Positions 4,427 to 36,953 of a DNA stretch of 37,923 bases are shown piece by piece. This DNA comes from a virus. Made by a program: the position numbers and the translations under genes. The notes under the pieces are model-generated. The model saw nothing but the letters and a program-made list of their open reading frames with translations. It did not search any database and was not told the DNA's origin. The DNA lies in IMG/VR virus record IMGVR_UViG_3300041955_000551, positions 1 through 37,923 of that record. One strand, written 5' to 3'. Position 1 is the first letter of the stretch. The number at the start of each line of letters is the position of its first letter.

Positions 4427-4602
4427 ACCTCTTTGCAAAAACCCCAAAAACCCCGAAAACCCCATTTAATCATGGCTGCACGCAACGATTGACGTTTTCC
4501 GCTAAACCCTTTGGCGCTTAAGGATATGGGGATTTCTGCGGAAAAAAGTGGATTGATGCATCACTTAGGTTTTCGGGGTTTTTGGGGTTTTTGCAAAGAG
4601 GT
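4427..4602. other. Perfect 35-bp inverted repeat around an AT-richer core: candidate replication origin
   Basis: The arms 4427-4461 and 4568-4602 are exact reverse complements. The right arm reads GGTTTTCGGGGTTTTTGGGG and continues to GCAAAGAGGT, so each arm also contains tandem GGGGTTTTT units. The 106-bp spacer is AT-rich for this genome. The element sits just downstream of the DUF3987-type replication gene and overlaps no gene. An inverted repeat with iteron-like units next to a replication ATPase fits an origin. A transposon footprint or transcription element is possible. Confidence 0.55.
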
Positions 4603-4617: not shown

Positions 4618-6267
4618 TTAGTGATGTAACAGAGGGTTGACGTCATAGGTTGGCGACGGCGGGCGGCCACCTTTGGGCCCGGAAAGGGCGGCCGGTGTGG
4701 GGCGTATCACACCCCGGGAAATGAGATGCGTGATCGTCGCGGAAAGCGCGTCGTCGTCGATCCATCGTCTGGCATGGCGCAGGTCGGCAATGCTGAATCG
4801 GGTGAGCAATTGGGAACTAAGCCAGAGTGTGACGGCGCGGATGGCTTTCCCTTTTCGCGTGCTTGCACCGTGGAGAACGCTTTGCACGCGGAGGGCGTGG
4901 CTTTTGAAGTAGGCCACAAGCTCCCAGGCTCGGTCGACGTTTTCCGCCTCGACGGCCGGCACTGCGGTCGGGTCGGTTTCTTCCGCGGCATAGTGCATCA
5001 GCGTGAGTATCAGGGCGAAGCGCCCAGCATACTCACGCATCTTGCCCCACGGGCCTCGCAGCTCGGGGTCGAATTCGAGCCCGTTCATTTCTTGGCAGTG
5101 GGCGTTGAAATGCAGGCGCCAACATTCTTTTGCCGCTGTGCTGGGGATGATCGCCGAGGGTTGGGGTTTGTTGCGATTGAGAACAAGCGGCCGGTCCCAG
5201 AGCCGGGTTATCAACGCGGTCCAATCGCGCATGATCTTGGGCGAGATTCCGCGGTCGTTCCAGGGCGCGACGGGTCGCGCGTCGGGGAAGGAGAAAAGGT
5301 AGCGATCAATGAAGCCGTCGGAGACGCCATGGTTGCCGCCGAGCTCGAACAAGATGTCGGGCGGCAGACCCCCGGTGATACTGACGGCCGGGTCGTCGCA
5401 GGCGACCGGCTCTTGGTTTTCGTGGCTGACTCGGTCGGTGACGATTCGGTCCCCAGACCAGATCTTGCAGGCAATCGACCGGTCGTGGCCTCGGCCGCCG
5501 CTTTTGTACTGGTTCATGCCGCGGAGATAGGCGCTGAGCTCGTCGCGGATCATGACGAGTCCGCGGGGGTTTTGTTGGAGGATCCGAGGGATCGCCTCGG
5601 TGGTCGTATCGTCGATATCGATGCGCTTGCGCTTAGGTCGCTGGGGCGTCGGCAGACGCTCGGTAATCGCCTTGGCGCAGGCCGCCTCCCATTCTTTGAT
5701 CGCCTTTCGGTGGTCGGCTGCGAGCCGGTGATCGATTGCGCGCACCGGAGCGGCGCAGAATTTCATCGCCGGGGTTTTTCCATCGGAGGGCGGTCCAACA
5801 CAAGCGGCATAGAGCGTTGCGCCGACGGCATATCCGTTCTTCAGTAGTAGTACACTCGATCGACCGATTGCGCCGGCAGCAATCACAAGGGCGGGCACAG
5901 CGAGGAAATCTGGGGCGCAGCCGATCGACTGACTGCCGGCCTCGGCAAGGGCCCTCGCCGGCGACGGCAGAACATCAAGCGGAAACGGCTTGACTTGAGA
6001 CGACTCGTCGAGGCGCATCGGCGGCCACGGTTCGGGTTCATCAGCGGGGGCTACCTCGGTCTCGATCGCTTCGTCGTCGATGCATGCAATAACCCGGGCT
6101 TGGATCTCTGGCGGTAACGCGTTGAGCGCTTCGCCTCTTCGGCCGGGCTCGGCCGCGGCGAGAATTCGCGCGGCCGATTGAAATGGTTCCTCCAGGCTGT
6201 CGATTTCGCCGTTGGGGGTGAAGCCGATGAGCAGTCGCCGGAAAAGGGCGGCGGGGGAAGTGTTCAT
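4618..6267 (-). CDS. DUF3987-type replication helicase/primase-associated ATPase
   Basis: This 549-residue protein has a helical N-terminal region (1-100), then a domain with AAGAIGRS near 131-137, the P-loop-like GPPSDGKTP (158-166), MIRDELSAYLRGM (239-251, a Walker-B-like acidic pair Asp242-Glu243), and a GGLPPDILFEL sensor-like stretch. This is the order seen in DUF3987 proteins, which sit with primases and D5-like helicases in phages and mobile elements. The C-terminal 80 residues look like a winged helix (RFSIADLRHARRWIDDDALSATI). It probably unwinds or organises DNA at the phage origin. It starts by an ATGA overlap with the gene upstream. The inverted repeat at 4427-4602 lies just past its end. 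Confidence 0.8.
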   Translation of the reverse strand: MNTSPAALFRRLLIGFTPNGEIDSLEEPFQSAARILAAAEPGRRGEALNALPPEIQARVIACIDDEAIETEVAPADEPEPWPPMRLDESSQVKPFPLDVLPSPARALAEAGSQSIGCAPDFLAVPALVIAAGAIGRSSVLLLKNGYAVGATLYAACVGPPSDGKTPAMKFCAAPVRAIDHRLAADHRKAIKEWEAACAKAITERLPTPQRPKRKRIDIDDTTTEAIPRILQQNPRGLVMIRDELSAYLRGMNQYKSGGRGHDRSIACKIWSGDRIVTDRVSHENQEPVACDDPAVSITGGLPPDILFELGGNHGVSDGFIDRYLFSFPDARPVAPWNDRGISPKIMRDWTALITRLWDRPLVLNRNKPQPSAIIPSTAAKECWRLHFNAHCQEMNGLEFDPELRGPWGKMREYAGRFALILTLMHYAAEETDPTAVPAVEAENVDRAWELVAYFKSHALRVQSVLHGASTRKGKAIRAVTLWLSSQLLTRFSIADLRHARRWIDDDALSATITHLISRGVIRPTPAALSGPKGGRPPSPTYDVNPLLHH

Positions 6268-6563
6268 AGTGCCAACCTCCTTTCCTCGGCGCGGAGCCGG
6301 TAGAGGCGGGTCGTACGCGGCATGGCGTGGCGCGGGTCGGCGTGGTCGTCAACGACGAGCTGCCGCTCGAATACGAGCGAGTTGAGGGCGACAGCGCGGG
6401 CCTGATCCGGGATGAAATCGAACGGGTCCACGTAATGCCAGATTTCGGCCGCAGTGACCGGGCGGGTCCAGAAGCGCACCGCGCCGAGGCAGCGCTGTTT
6501 CAACTCTTCCATGGTGAGTCGGATTCCTTCGAAGGGAATCGTGGGGATCGTGGCGGGCGTCAT
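6264..6563 (-). CDS. Small protein, possible winged helix, coupled to the replication gene
   Basis: This 99-residue protein starts at ATG 6563 behind a perfect GGAGG. It stops in an ATGA overlap with the DUF3987-type gene, so the two are translationally coupled. The middle (TMEELKQRCLGAVRFWTRPVTAAEIWHYVDPFDF) and the strand-rich C-terminus resemble a winged-helix fold, which fits a DNA-binding helper of the replication ATPase. No family is recognised with confidence. Confidence 0.7.
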   Translation of the reverse strand: MTPATIPTIPFEGIRLTMEELKQRCLGAVRFWTRPVTAAEIWHYVDPFDFIPDQARAVALNSLVFERQLVVDDHADPRHAMPRTTRLYRLRAEERRLAL

Positions 6564-6868
6564 GAGCGACCTCCTTCCGGGTGGGAATCGGAGGCCGGGA
6601 GAATGTCGGCGCACGTCAGCGGGATCGAGACTCGCTCGTGATCGGTCCAGTCGGGCCACCAGGCGGGGCTGTTGTCGAGCTCGTAATGGTCTTGGTCCGT
6701 CCAGGCCGGCCACATCGCGGCGGGGATTCCTCGCACGCGGCGCTGGCGGCGGTGGCGGGCGAACGACTCGGTGTAACGGCCGGTCGTGACGATGTGTATC
6801 GACCGCGCTGAGGGCGTGGAGACAGCGTCTCCGGGCCGGCGTTGGGCCGGCGGAACATGAGGCAGCAT
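6560..6868 (-). CDS. Small early protein with a duplicated WPxWTD motif
   Basis: This 102-residue protein starts at ATG 6868 with GAAAGGATC upstream and ends in an ATGA overlap with the next gene. It has a basic middle (SFARHRRQRRVRG) and then two copies of a Trp-rich unit, MWPAWTDQDHYEL and WWPDWTDHERVSI, separated by four residues. The duplicated aromatic and acidic motif suggests a small binding surface. Function is unknown. Confidence 0.65.
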   Translation of the reverse strand: MLPHVPPAQRRPGDAVSTPSARSIHIVTTGRYTESFARHRRQRRVRGIPAAMWPAWTDQDHYELDNSPAWWPDWTDHERVSIPLTCADILPASDSHPEGGRS

Positions 6869-6948
6869 TGAAAAGATCCTTTCATTGGCCGGTCGATTCA
6901 GTAGGGCCTCACAAGCACTAACTGAGTCGAGCGGGGCTTCCGTGGGAA

Positions 6949-6982
6949 TTGGTCCCTGGTCCGTTGTCCTTTGTCCGTTGTT
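6949..6982. repeat. Dispersed GGTCCNTTGTCC-type repeat, copy 2
   Basis: Degenerate tandem units (TGGTCCCTGGTCCGTTGTCC and on to CCGTTGTT) in the 145-bp gap 6869-7013. Same family as 3047-3077. The gap is otherwise empty of genes. Confidence 0.6.
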
Positions 6983-7013
6983 GGGGACAACCCGGGGGCC
7001 AAAGGGGAGTCTA

Positions 7014-7262
7014 TCATTCAGGCTGGCGGGTGCCAATCGGCTGTCTGGGCTCAAGCTCCAGAAGTAAGATTGGAAACGGCGCGTCGGGGCGGTCGGTCAG
7101 GTGGCCGAAAGGTGCGTGGCCGGGAGAGACGTAGACAACGAGGTTCTTGTTGATGAGCGCCTCGTAGATTTCGTCGGCGAACTCGTCAATGTTGGGTTCG
7201 ACGTGGAAGCCGTTGGCTCTTGGCCGGCCGGTCAGGTAATCGATCAGGCGGGCGTATTTCAT
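7014..7262 (-). CDS. Small early protein, unknown function
   Basis: This 82-residue protein starts at ATG 7262, with GCGAGGAC upstream, inside an ATGA overlap with the gene before it. It begins MKYARLIDYLTGR, has an acidic helix (IDEFADEIYEALI), then strands. The compact mixed profile suggests a soluble domain. No known motif is seen. Confidence 0.65.
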   Translation of the reverse strand: MKYARLIDYLTGRPRANGFHVEPNIDEFADEIYEALINKNLVVYVSPGHAPFGHLTDRPDAPFPILLLELEPRQPIGTRQPE

Positions 7263-7588
7263 CGCATTGGGTCCTCGCAACAGGCACTGCAGAGATCGAA
7301 ACTCACCCATTCACAGCCGCCGTCGCAGGCGTTGTCGGCGGTGCAACCGCATTTCTTGCAGCGTTGGAGCTCGGCGCGCTGGTCGAACCATTCGCGGAGA
7401 GTGCAGGACGGCCCGGTCGAGATAAAGAGCCGGGCTTCGACGATTTTCCAGAGAGGCCATTTGCGAATTGCGGTCGCGGTATGGCGGTAGCCGCGGTCGG
7501 CGAGCTGGCCGGAAAGCCAGATCGCCAGGGTTAGGGAGATTTTCCCTCGCTCGCGCGTCGGGTTGGTGTGGGTCGGTTTCATACGCAT
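7259..7588 (-). CDS. Cys-rich zinc-binding phage protein with a repeat-derived N-terminus
   Basis: The C-terminal third of this 109-residue protein has seven cysteines (residues 77, 80, 82, 88, 92, 100, 103) in a CxxCGC...C...C.W...LCxxC arrangement. I recognise this as a small zinc-knuckle type common in phage genomes. The first 26 residues, including NPTRERGKISLTL, are encoded inside the 107-bp direct repeat 7512-7618, which also supplies a GGGAG ribosome binding site for ATG 7588 (an in-frame ATG at 7582 is coupled to the tiny ORF 7579-7623). The family usually needs only the Cys domain, so the N-terminus may be recent. It could bind nucleic acid. Confidence 0.65.
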   Translation of the reverse strand: MRMKPTHTNPTRERGKISLTLAIWLSGQLADRGYRHTATAIRKWPLWKIVEARLFISTGPSCTLREWFDQRAELQRCKKCGCTADNACDGGCEWVSFDLCSACCEDPMR

Positions 7589-7618
7589 TGGCAAGCTCCC
7601 GACTGGCGAGTTGGCGGG
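7512..7618. repeat. 107-bp perfect direct repeat, copy 1
   Basis: Identical to 8053-8159. On the minus strand it holds the end of one gene (the PPTRQSGACQCV tail) and the beginning of the next (MRMKPTHTNPTRERG...), that is, a gene junction present twice. The 'NPTRERG' coding stretch is typical of planctomycete dispersed repeats. Confidence 0.95.
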
Positions 7619-7623
7619 TACAT
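7579..7623 (-). pseudogene. 14-codon remnant of the 8120-8386 gene end, with its own ribosome binding site
   Basis: Behind a perfect AAGGAGACATC, ATG 7623 opens MYPPTRQSGACQCV and stops in an ATGA overlap with the zinc-protein gene. Its last 12 residues are the same as the C-terminus of the protein at 8120-8386. It looks like a leftover tail after a duplication, now acting as a translation leader. Confidence 0.5.
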
Positions 7624-7740
7624 GATGTCTCCTTGCGTGTGAAGGTGCGATAAACGCCATGGCAACATGCCAGGGCGATTCCGGCCGGGCCTACTAGGGG
7701 ACTAAGCCCAGTCGGCTAGAGGGGAGCGGGAAGCGTCGTT

Positions 7741-8022
7741 TCAGTCGTCGTAGCGGGGCTCGTAGGCGCGGGCCATGGCGGGGGCCGCGTCAAGGCGCTC
7801 GAGGGCTTTGATCACGCCGTTAGTGGTAATGCGGGCCAGTCCGGACGGTCCGATGCGATTGCGTAGGCTCTGGAGCGTCGGTACGTGGTCCTTGTGAATG
7901 CCGGTGTAGCGGCCAGTCTGCCAAGCGTGGTCAAGAGCTGCTCGCCAGCGTCGGCCATGGGTGGCGATAACGTCCAGTAAGGCGCGACATTCGGCCGCGT
8001 CCAGGGTGGGCGTGGTGGTCAT
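7741..8022 (-). CDS. Small early protein in a cassette between two 107-bp repeats
   Basis: This 93-residue protein starts at ATG 8022 with GAGGAGACATC just upstream. It is basic and helical (ALLDVIATHGRRWRAALDHAW..., then SLRNRIGPSGLARITTNGVIKALERL), which could fit a small DNA-binding or adaptor protein. No family is recognised. It is the only gene between the two copies of the 107-bp repeat, so it was probably added to the operon as a unit. Confidence 0.7.
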   Translation of the reverse strand: MTTTPTLDAAECRALLDVIATHGRRWRAALDHAWQTGRYTGIHKDHVPTLQSLRNRIGPSGLARITTNGVIKALERLDAAPAMARAYEPRYDD

Positions 8023-8129
8023 GATGTCTCCTCAAGGGAAGCGTGCTGGTCCGAAAGCCAGATCGCCAGGGTTAGGGAGATTTTCCCTCGCTCGCGCGTC
8101 GGGTTGGTGTGGGTCGGTTTCATACGCAT
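8019..8129 (-). pseudogene. Truncated copy of the zinc-protein N-terminus
   Basis: A 36-codon frame whose first 26 residues equal those of the protein at 7259-7588 and whose last residues (DQHASLEETS) are unrelated. It overlaps the stop of the upstream gene and ends in an ATGA overlap with the gene at 7741-8022. It lacks the Cys domain and is best read as the broken half of a duplication that still keeps translation coupled. Confidence 0.5.
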
Positions 8130-8159
8130 TGGCAAGCTCCCGACTGGCGAGTTGGCGGG
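8053..8159. repeat. 107-bp perfect direct repeat, copy 2
   Basis: Identical to 7512-7618. It contains the end of the gene at 8120-8386 and the broken start of the zinc-protein gene. Confidence 0.95.
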
Positions 8160-8386
8160 CGCACCATTGCGGGCGCAGCGAGCACTAGGGCATAGGGCAC
8201 GATGCGATCAGGGCCGACGGCGTTTTCGATCATGCCGGCGAGCGCTGGAGCGTCGGTCTCATCGACGACGCCCAGGGCGTGGACGATGGCGACGAGCTCA
8301 ATGCCCGTCTCTGTCTTGCCTTTAAAGATTCGGGCCCAGCCTGCGCCATCGAAAGTGACGAGGCTGGTCGGTCTGAGAGTGATCAT
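8120..8386 (-). CDS. Small early protein, unknown function
   Basis: This 88-residue protein starts at ATG 8386 after CAAGGACCTCCA. Its profile is alternating strands and helices (SLVTFDGAGWARIFKGKTETGIELVAIVHALGV). The final dozen residues lie inside the 107-bp repeat. No known motif is seen. It belongs to the leftward early operon. Confidence 0.6.
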   Translation of the reverse strand: MITLRPTSLVTFDGAGWARIFKGKTETGIELVAIVHALGVVDETDAPALAGMIENAVGPDRIVPYALVLAAPAMVRPPTRQSGACQCV

Positions 8387-26791: not shown

Positions 26792-27262
26792 ATGCAAACC
26801 AGCGTCACAGTCACCGGCGTCGAGGAAATCAAGCGGGCCTTCCGCGAGCTGCCTCGGAACATCGCGCGCAAGGTCATCCGCCAGGCCGAGCGCAAGGCGA
26901 TGCGGATCCCGCTCGCGGCGGCGCGGGCCAATGCGCCGGTGAAAACCGGCAAGGGCCGGAAGTCGCTGCGGATCCGGGCCTCGAAAGGGCCGCGGGGCGC
27001 CGGCCGGGACACCATCGCGATCGCGCTCCTCGTCGGCGCGGCCGTCCCAGGTGAGACCTGGTATATGCAGTTGCAGGAGAAGGGCTGGCAGACTGGGAAG
27101 CGGGTTCGGTCTGGCGGGAAAGTCGTGGGACGGGTTGGAACGAGTCGGAAAATCCCCGGCAAAAGGTTCATGAAGAACGCGTTGACTACGACTGAGGAAC
27201 AAGTCAAGGCAGAGATGATCGACGAGATTACCGCGGGTATCGAACGGGAGGCGAGTGTCTGA
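26792..27262 (+). CDS. HK97 gp10-type tail/connector protein
   Basis: This 156-residue protein starts at ATG 26792 behind CAAGGAACA. VTVTGVEEIKRAFRELPRNIARKVIRQAERKAM, RANAPVKTGKGRKSLRIR and WYMQLQEKGW with a C-terminal RKIPGKRFMKNAL fit the gp10 family. It takes part in head-tail joining or tail completion. The stop overlaps the next start (TGATG). Confidence 0.88.
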   Translation: MQTSVTVTGVEEIKRAFRELPRNIARKVIRQAERKAMRIPLAAARANAPVKTGKGRKSLRIRASKGPRGAGRDTIAIALLVGAAVPGETWYMQLQEKGWQTGKRVRSGGKVVGRVGTSRKIPGKRFMKNALTTTEEQVKAEMIDEITAGIEREASV

Positions 27263-29567: not shown

Positions 29568-29573
29568 CAGTGA

Positions 29574-29654
29574 GGAGTGGGGAGTGGGGAGCGGGGAGCG
29601 AAAACCCGCGCCGGAGCTTCTTGCTCTCCACTCCCCACTCTCCACTCCCCGCTC
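29574..29654. repeat. GAGTGGGG-type repeats in inverted array
   Basis: Tandem GGAGTGG units on the left face complementary CCACTCC units on the right, with a 35-nt middle part, so the region can fold into a long hairpin. Such GGAGTGGGGAGTGG runs are known as host dispersed repeats. The gap 29568-29702 holds no gene. Confidence 0.7.
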
Positions 29655-30154: not shown

Positions 30155-30244
30155 TGATGGGTGGCGGGTGGCGAGTGGCGGGCAAATACAGCCGCCTCCG
30201 CGAGCGATTGTTTTAACCCTGCACCCTCCACCCTCCACCCTCCA
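30155..30244. repeat. GGTGGCGGGTGGCG / CACCCTCCACC repeats
   Basis: A run of GTGGCGG units (30155-30183) and a run of CACCCTC units (about 30220-30244) lie around a short unique core. Both are host-type dispersed runs. The second ends on the start codon of the next gene, which therefore has no ribosome binding site. Confidence 0.65.
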
Positions 30245-30246
30245 CC

Positions 30247-31227
30247 ATGGAAGCGGAGCGAAGACGTCGCCGTGCGCTCGAGTTCGATGGTGTGCCGCCG
30301 CCGGCGGCCGGGAAGGTTGGACACCTCGGTTTCGTGCCAGTCGTCGCGAGGCGCCGGCCTCGGCGAGCCTCGATCTTCTCGCCGGCCCGCACCGCCGGCG
30401 GCGAGGCCGGTCACCTCGCGCTCAAGCCGGTCATCGCGCCGCGGCAGCCGCGGCGGTCGATGGTCGTCACCGAGCAGCTCGCCAAGTCGCCGGCTGCCGC
30501 GCAGCCTCCGATCTTGGCGCTCAAGCCAGTCACCCCATTTAGGCGGCCGCGGAAAGCGACCCTCTCGATCGAGCAGCTCGCCAAAGTCCCAGCGCAGCCT
30601 CCTCTGGTACCACTGCGTCCCTTTTTCCCAGGGAAGCGGCCGCGGCGGGCGATCGTCGTGCCCGAAATCCTGGGCAAGACGCCGGCGGCTCCCCAGCCTC
30701 CGCTGCTGCGTTTCGTCGCGGCCCGGCGGGCCGAGCGGGTGCGACGGGCCCAGGTCTCCAGCGGGCAGATCCCGCCGGCGGTGCAGGCTTTGACGCTCCG
30801 GGAGGCTGTTGTCGCATGGCTGAACTCGCTGAGCGCGCTCACGGCGGTCGTTGGGACTCGGATTTACTTCGAGGATCCGAGCCAGATGGGCCTCTACCCA
30901 TGTGTGACGGTCCAGGTGACCGATCGGTCGTGGGGCCGCAACCTGGCCGGTGCCGATGGTACCTCGACCGCGACGGTGGAAATCGACGGGCTAGCCCTAA
31001 GTGAGAGCACGTGCATCGCGATCGCAGAGGTCGTGCGCAATAACTTCGACGGGTTCCGTGGCTTGCAATCGGGCGTGCCGATCCTCTGGCAGAAATACCT
31101 CGATGAGAGTGATGAGACGACCGAGCCGCCGGACGGCTCTGATCAGTGGGTCTACCACGCGATTATCAAATATCGCATCAGGCACCGCGTTCCCTTCCCC
31201 ACTTCGGTAACGCAAACAAACGTCTGA
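30247..31227 (+). CDS. Tail terminator-like protein with N-terminal Pro/Arg 31-residue repeats
   Basis: The C-terminal half of this 326-residue protein (about 185-315; LTLREAVVAWLNSLSAL...GTRIYFEDP, YPCVTVQVTDRS, DGSDQWVYHAIIKYRIRHRV) fits the DUF3168/tail-completion type. The first 160 residues are about five units of 31-33 residues with core RRPRRA..VxxEQLAKxPAAxPPLLALKPV. The repeats are very basic and proline-rich. The start at ATG 30247 follows a run of host repeats with no ribosome binding site; a shorter start could make only the terminator domain. Confidence 0.7.
   Translation: MEAERRRRRALEFDGVPPPAAGKVGHLGFVPVVARRRPRRASIFSPARTAGGEAGHLALKPVIAPRQPRRSMVVTEQLAKSPAAAQPPILALKPVTPFRRPRKATLSIEQLAKVPAQPPLVPLRPFFPGKRPRRAIVVPEILGKTPAAPQPPLLRFVAARRAERVRRAQVSSGQIPPAVQALTLREAVVAWLNSLSALTAVVGTRIYFEDPSQMGLYPCVTVQVTDRSWGRNLAGADGTSTATVEIDGLALSESTCIAIAEVVRNNFDGFRGLQSGVPILWQKYLDESDETTEPPDGSDQWVYHAIIKYRIRHRVPFPTSVTQTNV
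30259..30729 (+). repeat. About five coding repeats of 31-33 codons
   Basis: Units inside the 30247 gene, anchored on RRPRRA, EQLAK and ALKPV. They are diverged at the DNA level. The period equals that of the repeats at 35451-36008. Confidence 0.7.
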
Positions 31228-31239
31228 GGGTCATCTGCC

Positions 31240-31656
31240 ATGGCAGTCAATGTAGGGCAAGGGACAATCTTAAAGGTCACGATTTCGAGCACCCTCACGG
31301 CGGTGTTCCAGCTCCTCGAGGTCGATGGTCCCGGGGCCGAAATTGGCACGAAGGAAACCACGAATTTGGGGAGCACGGTCAAGACGTTTCGTGCTCAGCT
31401 TCCGGATCCGGGCGAGCTCTCGTTCACAGTACAGTACGATCCGAGCGATACGACGACGACTCAGGCTCTTCAGACGATGGTGATGACGTGGCCGCAAGCG
31501 GCGGTTGTGTGGAATTTGATCTTCAACACGTCGCCGTCGCACTCCTGGGCCTTTTCGGCGATCTTGACCGGGTTCAAGCCGAAGGGGATGAACGAGGATG
31601 ACAACCTCGAAGCCGACCTCAAGTTGAAGCTCACGGGCGCCATCACGTTTACTTGA
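31240..31656 (+). CDS. Major tail tube protein
   Basis: This 138-residue protein starts at ATG 31240. TISSTLTAVFQLLEVDGPGAEIGTKETTNL and PDPGELSFTVQYDPSDTTTTQAL match the lambda gpV-like tube proteins, which stack as hexamers to form the tail tube. The position before the frameshifted chaperone pair and the tape measure fits. Confidence 0.88.
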   Translation: MAVNVGQGTILKVTISSTLTAVFQLLEVDGPGAEIGTKETTNLGSTVKTFRAQLPDPGELSFTVQYDPSDTTTTQALQTMVMTWPQAAVVWNLIFNTSPSHSWAFSAILTGFKPKGMNEDDNLEADLKLKLTGAITFT

Positions 31657-31679
31657 TGATTCATTCATTGTCGTCTGTT

Positions 31680-31709
31680 GCTCCGCGAAAGAATTCCCTT
31701 TCGCGGAGC
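31680..31709. repeat. Perfect 12-bp hairpin, host-type repeat
   Basis: GCTCCGCGAAAG (31680-31691) and CTTTCGCGGAGC (31698-31709) with a 6-nt loop. The pattern recurs widely in planctomycete genomes as far as I recall. Being between the tube gene and the chaperone gene, it could cap the very abundant tube transcript. Confidence 0.75.
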
Positions 31710-31742
31710 GAAAGGCGACGGTAACCACGCCCCCGGGTGCCC

Positions 31743-32216
31743 ATGAACCTCCGCGACCAAATCCTTGCTGCCGAAGATCGCAAGATCGTTTCTGTCGATG
31801 TCCCGGAATGGGGAATCACAGTCCACGTGCGCACGATGTCCGCCTCGGAGCGCGATCGTTTTGAGGAAGTGCAGATCCGCCAGAAGTGGCAAGACCTGCG
31901 CGCTCGCCTGGCCGTGGCCACGCTCTGCACCGAGGAAGGTGAGCTCATTTTCAGCGAGCCCGACGTCGCCGAGGTCGCCAGCAAGAACGGCCATGCGCTC
32001 GATCGGATCTTCGCGGTGTCGAGCAAGCTCAACCATCTGACTGCGGAGGACGTGGCCGAGCTAAAAAAAAACTCCGAGGAAATCCGCTCCTCCGGTTCGA
32101 GCTCAAGCTTGCGCTCGCCCTCGGCATGTCCCGGAAACGGTTGCTCCGAGAGCTCGATTCCGAGGAACTCAGTCTCTGGCTCGCATACGACGGTCTCGAC
32201 GGGATCCCGGACCTGA
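31743..32216 (+). CDS. Tail assembly chaperone, gpG-like
   Basis: The zero-frame product has 157 residues starting at ATG 31743. MNLRDQILAAEDRKIVSVDVPEWGITVHVRTM, SASERDRFEEVQ and DRIFAVSSKLNHLTAEDVAELKKN are typical of gpG-type chaperones. Past residue 108 the sequence becomes a Ser-rich tail, as expected if it is only the unshifted end. It coats the tape measure with the frameshifted gpGT form. Confidence 0.85.
   Translation: MNLRDQILAAEDRKIVSVDVPEWGITVHVRTMSASERDRFEEVQIRQKWQDLRARLAVATLCTEEGELIFSEPDVAEVASKNGHALDRIFAVSSKLNHLTAEDVAELKKNSEEIRSSGSSSSLRSPSACPGNGCSESSIPRNSVSGSHTTVSTGSRT
32063..32072 (+). promoter_or_regulatory. Slippery site for -1 frameshifting
   Basis: Nine A residues followed by C. 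In frame it reads CTA AAA AAA AAC, containing the classic heptamer A AAA AAC at 32066-32072. A -1 slip continues into the frame that ends at 32407. Confidence 0.85.
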
Positions 32217-32407
32217 ACTGGAGCGCCGCGCGCATCTGTGCGACGACGGTGGCGGCGCTCACGGGGCGGAAGTCGAGCCTCTGGGATCACATGCCGCGGC
32301 AGAAGGAGAGCCGGGCGTTGCCGGCTGAGGAAGGCCTGCGAGTGATGCAGGCGATTGCGATCCATCACAACGCTAGAGTAGCCGTCACGAGTCACGCCCC
32401 GGCGTGA
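32072..32407 (+). CDS. Tail assembly chaperone, gpT part of gpGT (after -1 frameshift)
   Basis: About 111 residues in the -1 frame after the slippery site. RFELKLALALGMSRKRLLRELDSEELSLWLAYDGLDGIPDL is a clear match to the 'LAlaLGmtv.eL...ls..ELteW.ayy' pattern of gpT-type extensions. It has no own start with a ribosome binding site, so it is made as a fusion to the gpG protein. The ratio of the two products is set by the slip rate. Confidence 0.85.
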   Translation, partial: LRGNPLLRFELKLALALGMSRKRLLRELDSEELSLWLAYDGLDGIPDLNWSAARICATTVAALTGRKSSLWDHMPRQKESRALPAEEGLRVMQAIAIHHNARVAVTSHAPA

Positions 32408-32461
32408 CGTTTTTGTTGGAGTCTGATCAGTATAAGGAGGCGGACCGATGGCGACAATCGG

Positions 32462-33937
32462 TTGGATAAAATCGGTATAGCGGCGGACACCAAGCCGCTT
32501 GAGGCCAACGTCAAGCAGGCCGAGGGCGTCGTCGAGGGGTTCAAGAGCAACCTCCTCGCGATGGGTGCGGCGGCCGGCGCTGCGTTTCTTTCGTTCGAGG
32601 CGATCAAGGGCCTTTATGAGTGGGTCAAGGGCGCGGGCGAGGCGATCAACCAGGCTCGGGTCATGGCCGATCGCGTCGGGATGAGCAGCGAGGCTTTTAA
32701 TAAGCTCTCCTATGCCGCCACCGCGGCCGGCATCGATGAAGGCACCTTCGCGATGTCCGTTGAGCAGATGAATAAGCGCCTCGGCGAGCTTGCCGTCGAG
32801 GGCACCGGGCCCGCGGCCGACGCGTTGAAGCGTTTCGGCCTCAGCGCCCGCCAGCTCGCCGAGCAGGGGCCGGAGGCCAGCTTCGAGAAATTGGTCGGCG
32901 TGCTGGGCAGCATCAAGAATCCGGCCGAGAGAGCGGCTGTGGCCATGGACCTCTTCGGCAAATCCGGTCAGGCGATACTCAACCTCGCCGAGAAGGGGCC
33001 GGGCGGCCTCAAAGAGTTAGAGGAAGAGGCCCAGAAATTGGGTATCGCGACGAGCAACGTCGACGCCGAAAAGGTCCGCGAAGCGGAACATGCCTGGAAT
33101 CAGATCTGGACCGCAGTGCAGGGTCTGGGGCGCACGATCGCCGTTGAGCTCGCGCCCCATATCGCTTATGTCGCCGACGCGTTTAGCGACTGGGTCAAGC
33201 GGTCCAATGGTTTCGCGGTGATCGGGAGTGCCATTCACGATTTCGTGCTCAAGCCAATTTACATCGTGGCTGATGTGGTCAAGTTCGTGGAGTCGGCACT
33301 GCTGAGCCTCGGTGCAGCCGGGGTGCAGGCTTTCGCCGATCTGGCGAAGGGCGCAGCGGGATTTTCCGCGGCCATTAGCGGCCAGGGGAAGGCAGCGGGC
33401 GCAGGCGCACGCAAAGGCCATTGGGGCGGCCCTGATTGGGGGGCAATCTTGGGCGACGGTGCCGCCCCAGCGGCCGAGGCAAAGCAGCCGGGGAAATCGG
33501 GCTTCCTCGAGGGTTGGGCGGACGCTCTTCAGAAAAAATCCGACGAGATGCAGGCCCACGCGTTCAAGCTATGGAACGAGATCGGGAAGGGCCTCGACGA
33601 TGTCACCAAGGGTGCGGAGGATCGCGCCAAGGCCGCGGCCGATCGTAGTGCCGCTTTCCGCGCTCCGGGCGCTCTCTCTCCGCTCGAGCCGCCCAAGGCA
33701 AAGCCCAAGGAAAAAGAATTTGCCGGCGCTTTCACGCTGGGCTCAAAGGAAGCCTACTCGGCGATCGTGCAGTCGCGCGGCCAGTTTCTCTCGCAAAACG
33801 ACGCCAAGGTCACCGCGAAGAACACCGGCGAGGCGGCGGCCGAGCTCAAGGGGCACACGGCGATTCTGACGAAGATCGCCGCCGGCCTGGATCGCGCCGG
33901 CGGCGGGAATCTCGCGACGTCAGTGCACAACCACTAG
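32462..33937 (+). CDS. Tail tape measure protein
   Basis: This 491-residue protein is helical, with a membrane-like stretch (LLAMGAAAGAAFLSF), a GMSSEAFNKLSYAATAAG segment and AERAAVAMDLFGKSGQAIL, all typical of tape measures. It sets tail length. The frame opens with TTG 32462. A far better start, TAAGGAGGCGGACCG followed by ATG 32448, is out of frame by one base and stops after 10 codons (MATIGWIKSV). One lost base near 32460 would explain this. The length is short for a tape measure, which suggests a short tail. Confidence 0.85.
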   Translation: MDKIGIAADTKPLEANVKQAEGVVEGFKSNLLAMGAAAGAAFLSFEAIKGLYEWVKGAGEAINQARVMADRVGMSSEAFNKLSYAATAAGIDEGTFAMSVEQMNKRLGELAVEGTGPAADALKRFGLSARQLAEQGPEASFEKLVGVLGSIKNPAERAAVAMDLFGKSGQAILNLAEKGPGGLKELEEEAQKLGIATSNVDAEKVREAEHAWNQIWTAVQGLGRTIAVELAPHIAYVADAFSDWVKRSNGFAVIGSAIHDFVLKPIYIVADVVKFVESALLSLGAAGVQAFADLAKGAAGFSAAISGQGKAAGAGARKGHWGGPDWGAILGDGAAPAAEAKQPGKSGFLEGWADALQKKSDEMQAHAFKLWNEIGKGLDDVTKGAEDRAKAAADRSAAFRAPGALSPLEPPKAKPKEKEFAGAFTLGSKEAYSAIVQSRGQFLSQNDAKVTAKNTGEAAAELKGHTAILTKIAAGLDRAGGGNLATSVHNH

Positions 33938-34888
33938 ATGGCTATCGTCGCCGTCAACGAGATTTTCGAGGAGCGCACCGCCCGGTGGTCGGCCACCGAG
34001 GGGCGGCAATACACGCGCGTTTTCCGCGTGCTGAGCAACTCGATCTATGACGGGCCCAACACGGCGATCCAGGCCGTGGGCATCAACCGGGGCGACCCAT
34101 ACTCCGTCGTCAGCTTGATCGAGAGCGACCCGAATTCTTATTGCACCAATATCAGCGCGGTGCAGGAGGAGGGCGACCAGCTCGGGTACCTCGTTACGGT
34201 CGAGTACACCTGGTACAACCCGAACTATGCGGGCGGCGGTCCGAGTCAAAACCCGCTGCTCATCCCGATCGATGTGACGTGGAGTTTTCGGGCCCAAGAG
34301 AAGGTCGCTGAGTATGACATCAACGGCAATCCGATCCTGAACACGGCGTCTGATCCGTTTGACCCGCCTCTCGTAAAGGACGATCCACGTCCCCAGCTTA
34401 CCGTGGTGCGGAATGAGGCCGTCTACAACTTGTCCCAGGCGTATTCTTACCGAAACGCGATCAACTCGGATAGTTTTGCGACCTTCGATCCCACGATGGC
34501 GCGTGTGATTCAGATCGGCAGTAAGTCGGCTTGGCATCAGGACTGCGGCTGGTACTGGGTCGTGACCTACGAATTTGAGTTTGCTCCTCCCAGCGGGCCC
34601 GGCGATCCGGGCGGTTATAACCCGCTGGTTTTGAACCAGGGCATGCGGAAGATCAGCCAGAGCACGAATCTGCCGGTGCCGATCGTGCTGAATGGTGTAC
34701 CTGTATCAAAGCCCATGCGGCTCACCAAACAGGGTTATCTCTGTAAGCCCAGCGACCCCACGTACTGGCTCCAGTTTCAGATCTATCCGGCGCTGCCGTT
34801 CGGCGTGTTCGGCTTCGACCCGGTGGCGCTGGCCGGACAGCGCAGCGGGTTCAATACGGGGTTTGGCGACCAGAACTTCAACGATTAA
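33938..34888 (+). CDS. Tail tip or baseplate protein, unknown family
   Basis: This 316-residue protein starts at ATG 33938, directly after the tape measure stop. It is mainly strands with many aromatic residues (RQYTRVFRVLSNSIYDGPNTA, YLVTVEYTWYNPNYAGGG, WHQDCGWYWVVTYEFEFAPP). Its place after the tape measure is that of distal tail proteins. The stop overlaps the next start (TAATG). Confidence 0.75.
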   Translation: MAIVAVNEIFEERTARWSATEGRQYTRVFRVLSNSIYDGPNTAIQAVGINRGDPYSVVSLIESDPNSYCTNISAVQEEGDQLGYLVTVEYTWYNPNYAGGGPSQNPLLIPIDVTWSFRAQEKVAEYDINGNPILNTASDPFDPPLVKDDPRPQLTVVRNEAVYNLSQAYSYRNAINSDSFATFDPTMARVIQIGSKSAWHQDCGWYWVVTYEFEFAPPSGPGDPGGYNPLVLNQGMRKISQSTNLPVPIVLNGVPVSKPMRLTKQGYLCKPSDPTYWLQFQIYPALPFGVFGFDPVALAGQRSGFNTGFGDQNFND

Positions 34889-35328
34889 TGGGCATCTATC
34901 GCGCCGACCAGACTTTCGCCGACCGCCCGGTCCAGATCTCGCAGCGGCTGCTCAACGAGATCGTCCGCGCTGCGCGTCGATCGACCGAGGCCTGGCCGTT
35001 CTCTCAGGACCGCGGGATCGGGCACGATCGCGGCATGCCTGGGTCTACGGCAGGGCCCATGGGTATGTGCACGCCTGGCATCGTCACGACGCCAATTACG
35101 GTTTGCACCATTGCGAGCGGCGGTTACGTTCTGGGCCAGGGCATCGTCCAGTTCTATTTCTACGACAACGACAGCGGCTTTTCGAATCCGGTGCAGGTCT
35201 GTACGGACGATTACTCGAACGTGACGGTCTTCAACTGGTACCAGAACAGCGGAACGATTCCGACCGGCAAATCGGTGTGGTGCACGCAGTGGTCGGGGGC
35301 ATGGTGGTTTCTCGGTTCGGATTGTTGA
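34888..35328 (+). CDS. Tail protein, unknown family
   Basis: This 146-residue protein starts at ATG 34888 in the TAATG overlap. It has a helical N-terminus (DRPVQISQRLLNEIVRAARR), then a strand-rich C-terminus with a few Cys residues (MCTPGIVTTPITVCTI, CTQWSGAWWFLGSDC). It is probably a component of the tail tip or fibre attachment. Confidence 0.65.
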   Translation: MGIYRADQTFADRPVQISQRLLNEIVRAARRSTEAWPFSQDRGIGHDRGMPGSTAGPMGMCTPGIVTTPITVCTIASGGYVLGQGIVQFYFYDNDSGFSNPVQVCTDDYSNVTVFNWYQNSGTIPTGKSVWCTQWSGAWWFLGSDC

Positions 35329-35342
35329 GGTTGGATCTCTGA

Positions 35343-36953
35343 TTGCCAATCCAACAAAACAACCCGATATCCCCGAACGGTGGGGGTTCGGGCACTGCGA
35401 CCGGTACCGCGTCGGCTCATGCGCGCAGCCGGTTCGTCCAGCATCAGGGCCTTCCGCTCGGTCTGCCGAGTGGACTGCCTGGCCGCGGCCTCGTGGTGGC
35501 AGTCCAGCCCGCACGGCGGCCGCGGCCGCCAGCGATCCGGGCTCTGCCTCCGCTGGGTTTGCCGCCGAGTATCGGCCGTGGCGTGGCGGTGCAGGTCCGC
35601 AGCTCGCGGCGGCCAGGCCAGGTCATCGCGCGGGCTTTACCCCCGCACAGTTTGGCGCCGAGCCTCGGCGGCGGTGTGTCGGTGCATGTGCGGTCGGTTC
35701 GCCGGCCGACGCCCATTGCAATCCGGGCCCTGCCTCCGCCGAGCTTGGCGCCGACCACGATTCGCTCGGTCGTCTGGCCGGTGCGGCCGGTGCGGCGGGG
35801 TCGCCTCGTCTTGGCGCGGGCCTTGCCTCCACCGAGCTTGGCGCCGACCACGATTCGCTCGGCCGCCTGGCCGGTGCGATCGGCACCAAGGCCGCGGCCG
35901 GTTCTGGCGCGTGCGCTGCCTCCGCCGAGTTTGCCGCCGAGCCTGGGCACGGGGGTCGCTGCGCATTTGAGAACGGTGGCGCGGACGAAGGCGCTGGCGG
36001 TGCAGACGCCTCCATTCCCTGCCCTGGGCGGGTTCCCGAATGCGCAGGCGGGGGGAGTGCGATTTCTCGGGGTCGGCGGTACCGGCAGCGGCTGCGCCTG
36101 CTGCCCGGGGACGACGTGCCTCGAGTTTTTGGGGTGCAACCAGTCCGCGCTGCAGGGCGTCACCGTCAACGTCTACACCAAGAATGGCGGCACACTGGTC
36201 GCGGGCCCGCTCACTTCGAATTCGTCGGGATTCGTCTGCGCGTCGCTGATGACTGGCTCGTACTATGTGGTGCCGACCGGCACGGCCTGGCCGCTGAATC
36301 TCTACCAGTGGAACCCGACTCAGATCGAGCTGATATCCGGCCGGGCCGTCCTTTGGGGTCCGCCGGTGGTTTCGGGCTACGGCTGTTGCTCGACCGTGAA
36401 TTTCCCGCTGCCCCTGACGCTCTATTTGACCGTGTGCTCGCAGACGTTCACGTTGGTTGCACCGATCGTCAATCACCAGATCCAGGGCTGGGCGCCGATC
36501 GGAGCGACGGCCGACATCACGACCCCCTTTGTCGCTGTTGTCGGCGACCCGCCGGACTGCGACCTCGGCGGCTGGGATGGAGTGACGACCGACGTCCAAA
36601 CGGTTCCATGGGCTGTGCGGCTGTTGTGTCCGTCGGCCACCGGAGATGACGCGACCATGACCGGCCTGGCCGGTGTGTGCGGGATCGGGCATTACAACGG
36701 CCACATCGGTGGCTTCGATGCATTCGCGATCTGTCCGGCCGAGTGTGTGGGCGTGGGGAACGCCTACACTTGCTGTAACGGCGGCGCAGGGCCAGGGCCC
36801 GGCGTTCCATTCGCGCTGACCGGCACGATTGGCGAGGCGGGCGTCAGCCTCAGCGGCACGATGCCAGGCGGCGTGTCGACGAGCTGCGTGCTGCCTCCCG
36901 CGGCGCCGTGGCCGCTGCCGTGTGCCGGCGAGGGAATCCTCGTCACGAACTAA
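35343..36953 (+). CDS. Tail fibre/spike-like protein with six 31-residue repeats and a Cys-rich tip
   Basis: This 536-residue protein starts at TTG 35343 with GAGGTTGGATCTCTGA upstream. Residues 1-36 are a flexible head. Residues 37-222 are six exact-length units of 31 residues, core LPPPSLAP...VxVRSxRRP. After them comes a Cys-rich region: CACCPGTTCLEFLGCNQSAL, an Ig-like module with VTVNVYTKNGGTLVAGPLTSNSSGFVC, and several further Cys pairs (YGCCSTV, YTCCNGG). It is probably the host-binding fibre, with the repeat as shaft and the Cys-rich part as tip. Family is not recognised. Confidence 0.75.
   Translation: MPIQQNNPISPNGGGSGTATGTASAHARSRFVQHQGLPLGLPSGLPGRGLVVAVQPARRPRPPAIRALPPLGLPPSIGRGVAVQVRSSRRPGQVIARALPPHSLAPSLGGGVSVHVRSVRRPTPIAIRALPPPSLAPTTIRSVVWPVRPVRRGRLVLARALPPPSLAPTTIRSAAWPVRSAPRPRPVLARALPPPSLPPSLGTGVAAHLRTVARTKALAVQTPPFPALGGFPNAQAGGVRFLGVGGTGSGCACCPGTTCLEFLGCNQSALQGVTVNVYTKNGGTLVAGPLTSNSSGFVCASLMTGSYYVVPTGTAWPLNLYQWNPTQIELISGRAVLWGPPVVSGYGCCSTVNFPLPLTLYLTVCSQTFTLVAPIVNHQIQGWAPIGATADITTPFVAVVGDPPDCDLGGWDGVTTDVQTVPWAVRLLCPSATGDDATMTGLAGVCGIGHYNGHIGGFDAFAICPAECVGVGNAYTCCNGGAGPGPGVPFALTGTIGEAGVSLSGTMPGGVSTSCVLPPAAPWPLPCAGEGILVTN
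35451..36008 (+). repeat. Six tandem 93-bp coding repeats
   Basis: Six units of 31 codons in the 35343 gene. Units 4 and 5 are nearly identical over about 47 bases (from 35739 and 35832), showing recent copying, while the others have diverged. Confidence 0.85.

Follow-up and report, generated by a model that had tools for sequence, protein, structure and literature searches.

The stretch of DNA analysed here (the window) is one virus record of IMG/VR, IMGVR_UViG_3300041955_000551, of 37,923 bases, and our subject is two genes of its tail module, one for a tail terminator (P1) and one for a predicted tail-tip or fibre-like protein (P2), each of which begins with an array of Pro/Arg-rich repeats. 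In addition to an integrase and the tail genes, the window encodes a terminase large subunit (TerL), a portal, an S78 protease and an HK97-type capsid protein, a gene set that identifies it as a temperate HK97-type siphophage. Its hosts are probably planctomycete-type bacteria, because the close relative L007 sits in a Planctomycetales metagenome assembly; a further relative, L003, is the same as L004 and L005. Downstream of the capsid gene come a neck protein and several small genes, followed by P1, the major tail protein (MTP), a tail assembly chaperone and the tape measure, then genes at 33938 and 34888 and finally P2 (Table 1). The genes at 33938 and 34888 and P2 gave no PHROG match at E<=1.

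Table 1. Features of the window that are discussed in the text; positions count from its first base.
Feature	Position	Strand	Evidence
Integrase	1706-2707	minus	
Neck protein	26792		phrog_5
P1 (tail terminator, 326 aa), repeat array at its N-terminus	30247..31227	+	phrog_123, PF11367, gene order
Conserved P1 N-terminus (MEAERRRRRALEFD...)	30247..30309	+	window and L003 agree in 15 of the first 18 residues
P1 array, five Pro/Arg-rich units	30310..30789	+	unit spacing 30, 33, 31, 33; dN/dS vs L003
Terminator domain proper	30790..31224	+	alignment A3, five homologues 71-77% identical to window
Major tail protein (MTP)	31240..31656	+	phrog_158, E=2.1e-10; alignment A7
Tail assembly chaperone	31737..32216	+	phrog_344, E=8.7e-30
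Tape measure protein	32462..33937	+	phrog_9483, E=6.4e-40
P2, predicted tail-tip or fibre-like protein, 536 aa, N-terminal array	35343..36953	+	last large tail-module gene
P2 array of six 31-residue units, the last degenerate	35481..36038	+	Tandem Repeats Finder (TRF), period 93 nt at 35724-35940
Cys-rich C-terminal part of P2	36039..36950	+	alignment A4 with L003 and L007

Profile matches and gene order point to P1 as the tail terminator, in agreement with the original prediction made from the letters of the window. Residues 186-314 match the phrog_123 tail terminator (E=0.00099), residues 186-265 score 23.0 bits against PF11367 (curated cut-off 24.5), and the gene is located between neck/connector genes (phrog_5 at 26792) and the MTP gene. 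The P1 homologues L033, L048, L051 and L054 score above the PF11367 cut-off and L034 (22.7 bits) below it. Pfam and PHROG matches on P1 are confined to the terminator domain. A PDB sequence search returned no relevant relative of P1 (best E=0.91, an unrelated AlkB homologue), and neither whole P1 nor whole P2 had a match at E<=1 among 50,697 phage records. The AlphaFold (AF2) models are of low confidence, with a mean predicted local distance difference test score (pLDDT) of 40.4 for P1 and 33.5 for P2.

Both open reading frames (ORFs) and both repeat regions lie where they had been predicted, with self-similarity scores of 101 for P1 and 356 for P2, where the best shuffles reached 40 and 45, and the counts of about five and six units are borne out, the sixth P2 unit being degenerate. 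The 31-residue period that the original prediction gave to both arrays is exact in P2 (residues 47-232, spacing 31, 31, 31, 31, 31) but only approximate in P1 (residues 22-181), where the cores are spaced by 30, 33, 31 and 33 residues (mean 31.75) and the best ungapped single-period scores fall at 64, 30, 31 and 33. RRP cores likewise occur in both arrays but are exact in just two of the five P1 units and three of the six P2 units. Units 4 and 5 of P2, thought to be recent copies, are the most alike pair, but with DNA that is 72% identical they are not very recent copies. That unit number may vary agrees with L003, which has about three units in P1 and, in P2, about one that is degenerate; its array alone is not significantly periodic (34/300 shuffles as good), and L007 has neither the P1 nor the P2 array.

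The proposal of an extended, strongly basic strip on each protein, possibly binding envelope or nucleic acid, is supported by the net charge of the arrays, +26 in 180 residues for P1 (-6 for the remaining terminator part) and +29 in 206 residues for P2, which has no acidic residue in its array (-10 for the remainder). When the highest net charge per 150-residue stretch was compared across 28 window genes, some of which are unverified ORF choices, both arrays reached +25 and the next gene +23. The corresponding arrays of L003 carry +17 (P1) and +8 (P2).

The P1 start is conserved in L003 (MEAERRRRRALEFD in the window and MESERRRRRAIEFD in L003), and the DNA directly upstream of it is dissimilar between the two. 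Their alignment (A1) holds two in-frame gaps that measure 33 and 30 residues exactly, one unit each, as well as two other gaps of 2 residues each. Across 113 codons of the array the ratio of non-synonymous to synonymous substitution (dN/dS) is 0.36/0.87 = 0.41, and across 148 codons of the terminator domain it is 0.21/1.92 = 0.11. The conserved start, the unit-sized in-frame gaps and the dN/dS of 0.41 thus indicate that the P1 array is a coding sequence, less constrained than the terminator domain; an open frame across it arose by chance in 149/500 simulations. Translation of the P2 array is deduced from its open frame, its repeat pattern and the conserved C-terminal part only. The L003 homologue of P2 is 61% identical across aligned columns.

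N-terminal arms recur on the terminators of these phages. We compared 21 distinct A3-type terminators, omitting as duplicates L003 and L004 (both counted as L005), L047, L043 and L050, and mostly choosing the start of the extension by eye (L051, L032, L038 and the first copy in L006 were left untrimmed). An extension of at least 60 residues is present in 10 of the 21 (window, L006 first copy, L005, L052, L051, L048, L054, L033, L032 and L034). Fifteen extensions had enough length for testing, and 10 of these are self-repetitive (<=3/300 shuffles as good), including the short ones of L041, L037 and L042, and those of L051, L052, L036 and L038 are not significantly periodic. Net charge in this set runs from -39 to +26. 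The L006 terminator, whose 5' end is cut by the contig, has 38-residue units, and L048 has repeats before its terminator with a best-scoring period of 48 (0/300 shuffles), about 24 residues by eye. No array was seen in the downstream tail genes visible in L006, nor in those visible in L048 and L080.

Further loci came from database genomes. Searching 392 genomes of the phylum with A3 gave matches in four, three of them new, and these loci (L026-L028) were read at their N-termini only and stand outside the 21. Searching 45 genomes of the order with PF11367 gave 18 places, nine of them new, and two of the nine have giant Pro/Arg-rich arms, L071/L080 with 568 residues and a charge of +54 and L077/L081 with 554 residues and +62. 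Repeats of 35 and 37 residues, respectively, lie near the starts of the two arms, and open frames as long as theirs arose by chance in 4/500 and 3/500 simulations. The L080 and L081 terminators are 75% identical and the two arms do not align (E=0.47); armless terminators also occur in this lineage (L085/L113, L112). The P1 and P2 unit profiles did not recognise the L080 and L081 arms above shuffles, and searches of the 45 genomes with the P1 and P2 arrays gave marginal matches alone (E 0.003-0.005). Polybasic arms are found in the window, L003, L080 and L081; the remaining extensions have repeats of other types or are larger regions fused to the terminator.

Several of these loci have an arrangement of their own. 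In L006 the terminator gene with the repeat extension (2-703) is followed in tandem by a second, plain one (700-1149) just upstream of the MTP gene, the two being 92% identical in DNA across 435 bases; L032 (minus strand) with L079 likewise has tandem terminators before the MTP gene, the first with a repeat extension and the second plain. In-frame fusions of a terminator with a large region on its N-terminal side lie in L032 (minus strand, 4977-8351 in reverse-complement coordinates), L033 (6617-7831), L034 (8813-10105, minus) and L051 (1353-2360), and these regions hold other repeat types (periods of 25, 42 and 20 residues) or none that is significant. The longest extension with other repeats among the relatives has 986 residues, and Pro/Arg-rich arms reach about 570. 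The interval before the terminator is also rich in repeat genes, since separate genes upstream of it encode 21-residue TGVPVVD-type repeats in L038 (7268-8419, reverse-complement coordinates) and collagen-like repeats in L042 (6122-7822).

We favour, with moderate confidence, the reading that the P1 arm is a polybasic neck whisker which holds the particle to the host envelope, and that the P2 stalk is independent of it. P1 carries on its N-terminus a translated Pro/Arg-rich arm, about 160-180 residues long, which is strongly basic and probably unstructured. Excerpts of two structural studies (PMC10276861, PMC11784142) describe the terminator, in phages where it is known, as a hexamer on the tail tube with peripheral helices, and if P1 assembles as the usual hexamer, six arms would surround the neck. 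Because arms of this length should be too long to fit the channel, outward display is likely, and their strong positive charge suggests a grip on the polyanionic envelope of planctomycete-type hosts as the most likely function. Gain or loss of units changes arm length, and arm sequence is little constrained with composition kept in the armed pairs compared (window/L003 and L080/L081). The in-frame fusion of terminators to larger N-terminal regions in L032, L033, L034 and L051 fits a display role.

Several observations weigh against this. The low-pLDDT models leave the disorder of the arms undemonstrated, and the tail-tip position of P2 is predicted from gene order only. Other extensions of at least 60 residues run from +7 to -39, so strong positive charge is not general and charge-driven adhesion cannot account for all such extensions, and none of 25 PF11367 loci from the taxonomic class has an evident array; most have a plausible start near the domain, several lie behind long open frames taken as wrong-frame readings, and two (L097, L099) are doubtful, near contig edges. 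According to the excerpted T5 paper (PMC11784142), the N-terminus of the T5 terminator takes part in the contact between subunits, and the protein was monomeric when it had an N-terminal His tag; a long N-terminal arm could therefore disturb assembly. Mixed rings built from the armed and plain terminator pairs of L006 and of L032 with L079 could, speculatively, ease this problem.

On the best reading of the sequences, fast-evolving arms are a frequent N-terminal feature of the terminators of these phages, here polybasic and probably displayed at the neck. More tentatively, the planctomycete siphophage terminator might be a general display platform, a hexameric neck ring with exchangeable, fast-evolving repeat arms on its N-termini; where a plain terminator gene adjoins the armed one, mixed rings bearing a chosen number of arms could form. 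The terminator, usually regarded as a small conserved cap, appears here to double as an appendage anchor, which would offer a testable route to how phages first attach to planctomycete envelopes. Our literature search, which covered titles and the starts of abstracts and few subscription papers, found no planctomycete terminator arms of the P1 sort, and no structural work on this phage group was found in the literature searched.

Among known systems, P1 resembles the siphophage tail terminators (lambda gpU, SPP1 gp17, T5 p142 and the R4C terminator) in its C-terminal 145 residues, in its gene position before the MTP gene and, in the low-confidence model, apparently in its helix/strand pattern; it differs from them in the N-terminal repeat arm of 160-180 residues. 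The T5 paper (PMC11784142) also mentions larger terminators that bear added domains, including some in contact with the sheath of myophages. The neck passage structure (NPS) of lactococcal 936 and P335 phages is described in excerpts of PMC6669499 as an accessory, variable, cell-binding neck appendage; it is a protein of its own, made up of a BppU-like domain at the N-terminus, a coiled coil and often a terminal carbohydrate-binding module. A role as a neck appendage is the possible likeness, but no recognised domain is present in the P1 arm. P1 does not have the architecture of an NPS of the lactococcal type, its matches falling only in the terminator domain and its arm lying in the terminator ORF rather than in a separate, BppU-like protein. 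The MTP extensions of 936 phages (TpeX) are, in the same excerpts (PMC6669499), a core tail protein with a cell-binding extension, and P1 may be analogous in bearing on a core tail protein an arm that would bind cells; theirs, however, is a globular carbohydrate-binding module on the tube protein, with longer forms made by programmed frameshift.

The alternative that fares best, which we nevertheless consider unlikely, is that the arms serve as disordered, near-neutral spacers, or are expansions that the free N-termini of the two proteins can tolerate, with a composition that derives from a GC-rich genome and no binding role. The presence or absence of arms among relatives, the unalignable arms on the otherwise similar L080 and L081 terminators, the lower constraint on the P1 array than on its terminator domain and a range of extension charge that reaches from -39 to +62 would all suit this explanation. 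The dN/dS of the array is nonetheless well below 1, the P2 array has not one acidic residue among its 206, strongly basic arms are kept in both the window and L003, and the charge of the L080 and L081 arms is high despite their diverged sequences. Binding of nucleic acid, whether of extracellular DNA or of packaged DNA where head and tail meet, appears improbable. The very basic Arg/Pro-rich composition and the position of the terminator at the head-tail joint beside the DNA channel, as given in excerpts of PMC10276861 and PMC11784142, would agree with it, but the channel would scarcely have room for six arms of 160-570 residues, a similar stalk is found on P2, whose gene lies at the opposite end of the module, and the extensions of related terminators can be neutral or acidic.

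It is very doubtful that the two arrays form one matched system, by a common fold, by mutual interaction or by one having been copied from the other. They are similar in unit length and composition and belong to one phage, and a weak resemblance of their cores is detectable, since an ungapped whole-array comparison scored 41 (shuffle 99th percentile 32, maximum 43) and hhalign of the units gave P=0.017 across 11 columns, in the basic core only. BLASTP of one array against the other nevertheless found nothing, and the unit hidden Markov models (HMMs) showed no cross-recognition, that of P1 on P2 being equalled or beaten by 320/495 shuffles in sequence score and 30/495 in best domain, and that of P2 on P1 by 296/500 and 236/500. 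The best DNA alignment of the arrays was attained by 11/200 codon-shuffled pairs, P1 spacing is 30-33 rather than 31, and the terminator extensions of L006, L048 and L080 occur without a second array. We read this as similar chemistry around a short motif and not as shared descent. The original prediction had argued from the matched period to a common structure or an interaction; the period is unmatched in detail, the units are unlike, and the match is lost in relatives, in L003 as well as in the three just named, which is an outcome that the original prediction had itself listed as refuting. The basic N-terminal stalk of P2, similar to the P1 arm, is thus best read as having arisen independently, and two tail proteins of one phage would have reached the same basic, repeat-built chemistry without detectable common ancestry. 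Equally doubtful is a P1 array outside the virion, through translation from about codon 180 or cleavage of the arm: plain terminators starting at about this point do exist (L006 second copy, L007, L046) and an open frame over the array can arise by chance at the frequency given above, but the conserved start, the in-frame unit-sized indels and the dN/dS contradict an untranslated array with a start near codon 170, the other refuting outcome named in the original prediction.

Gene order, as noted, makes P2 a predicted tail-tip protein. A SpaA/CnaB-type domain (PF17802) was below cut-off in P2 (13.3 bits vs 23.1, E=0.094). Its C-terminal part matched at seven places in five of the 45 genomes of the order, and no P2-type array was seen in the open frames upstream of these seven matches; in the P2 relatives L060, L057 and L058 the N-terminal region, about 120 residues long, is of a different kind.

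Hairpins whose arms consist of tandem 7-base (or 9-base) units lie at gene junctions in the window (29568-29654, 30158-30246 and 4434-4593) and in L004 (233-332), and one of them adjoins the P1 start codon. Their DNA folding z-scores are -4.95 (29568-29654), -2.14 (30158-30246), -3.80 (4434-4583) and -5.99 (L004 233-332). The exact heptamer-hairpin pattern was not found in the 45 genomes of the order, and a 24-mer from the hairpin at 29568-29654 was found in one other viral record, L004. L081 has an inverted, repeat-armed intergenic element of CGCAGAT-like units at 6840-7165, upstream of its armed terminator gene.

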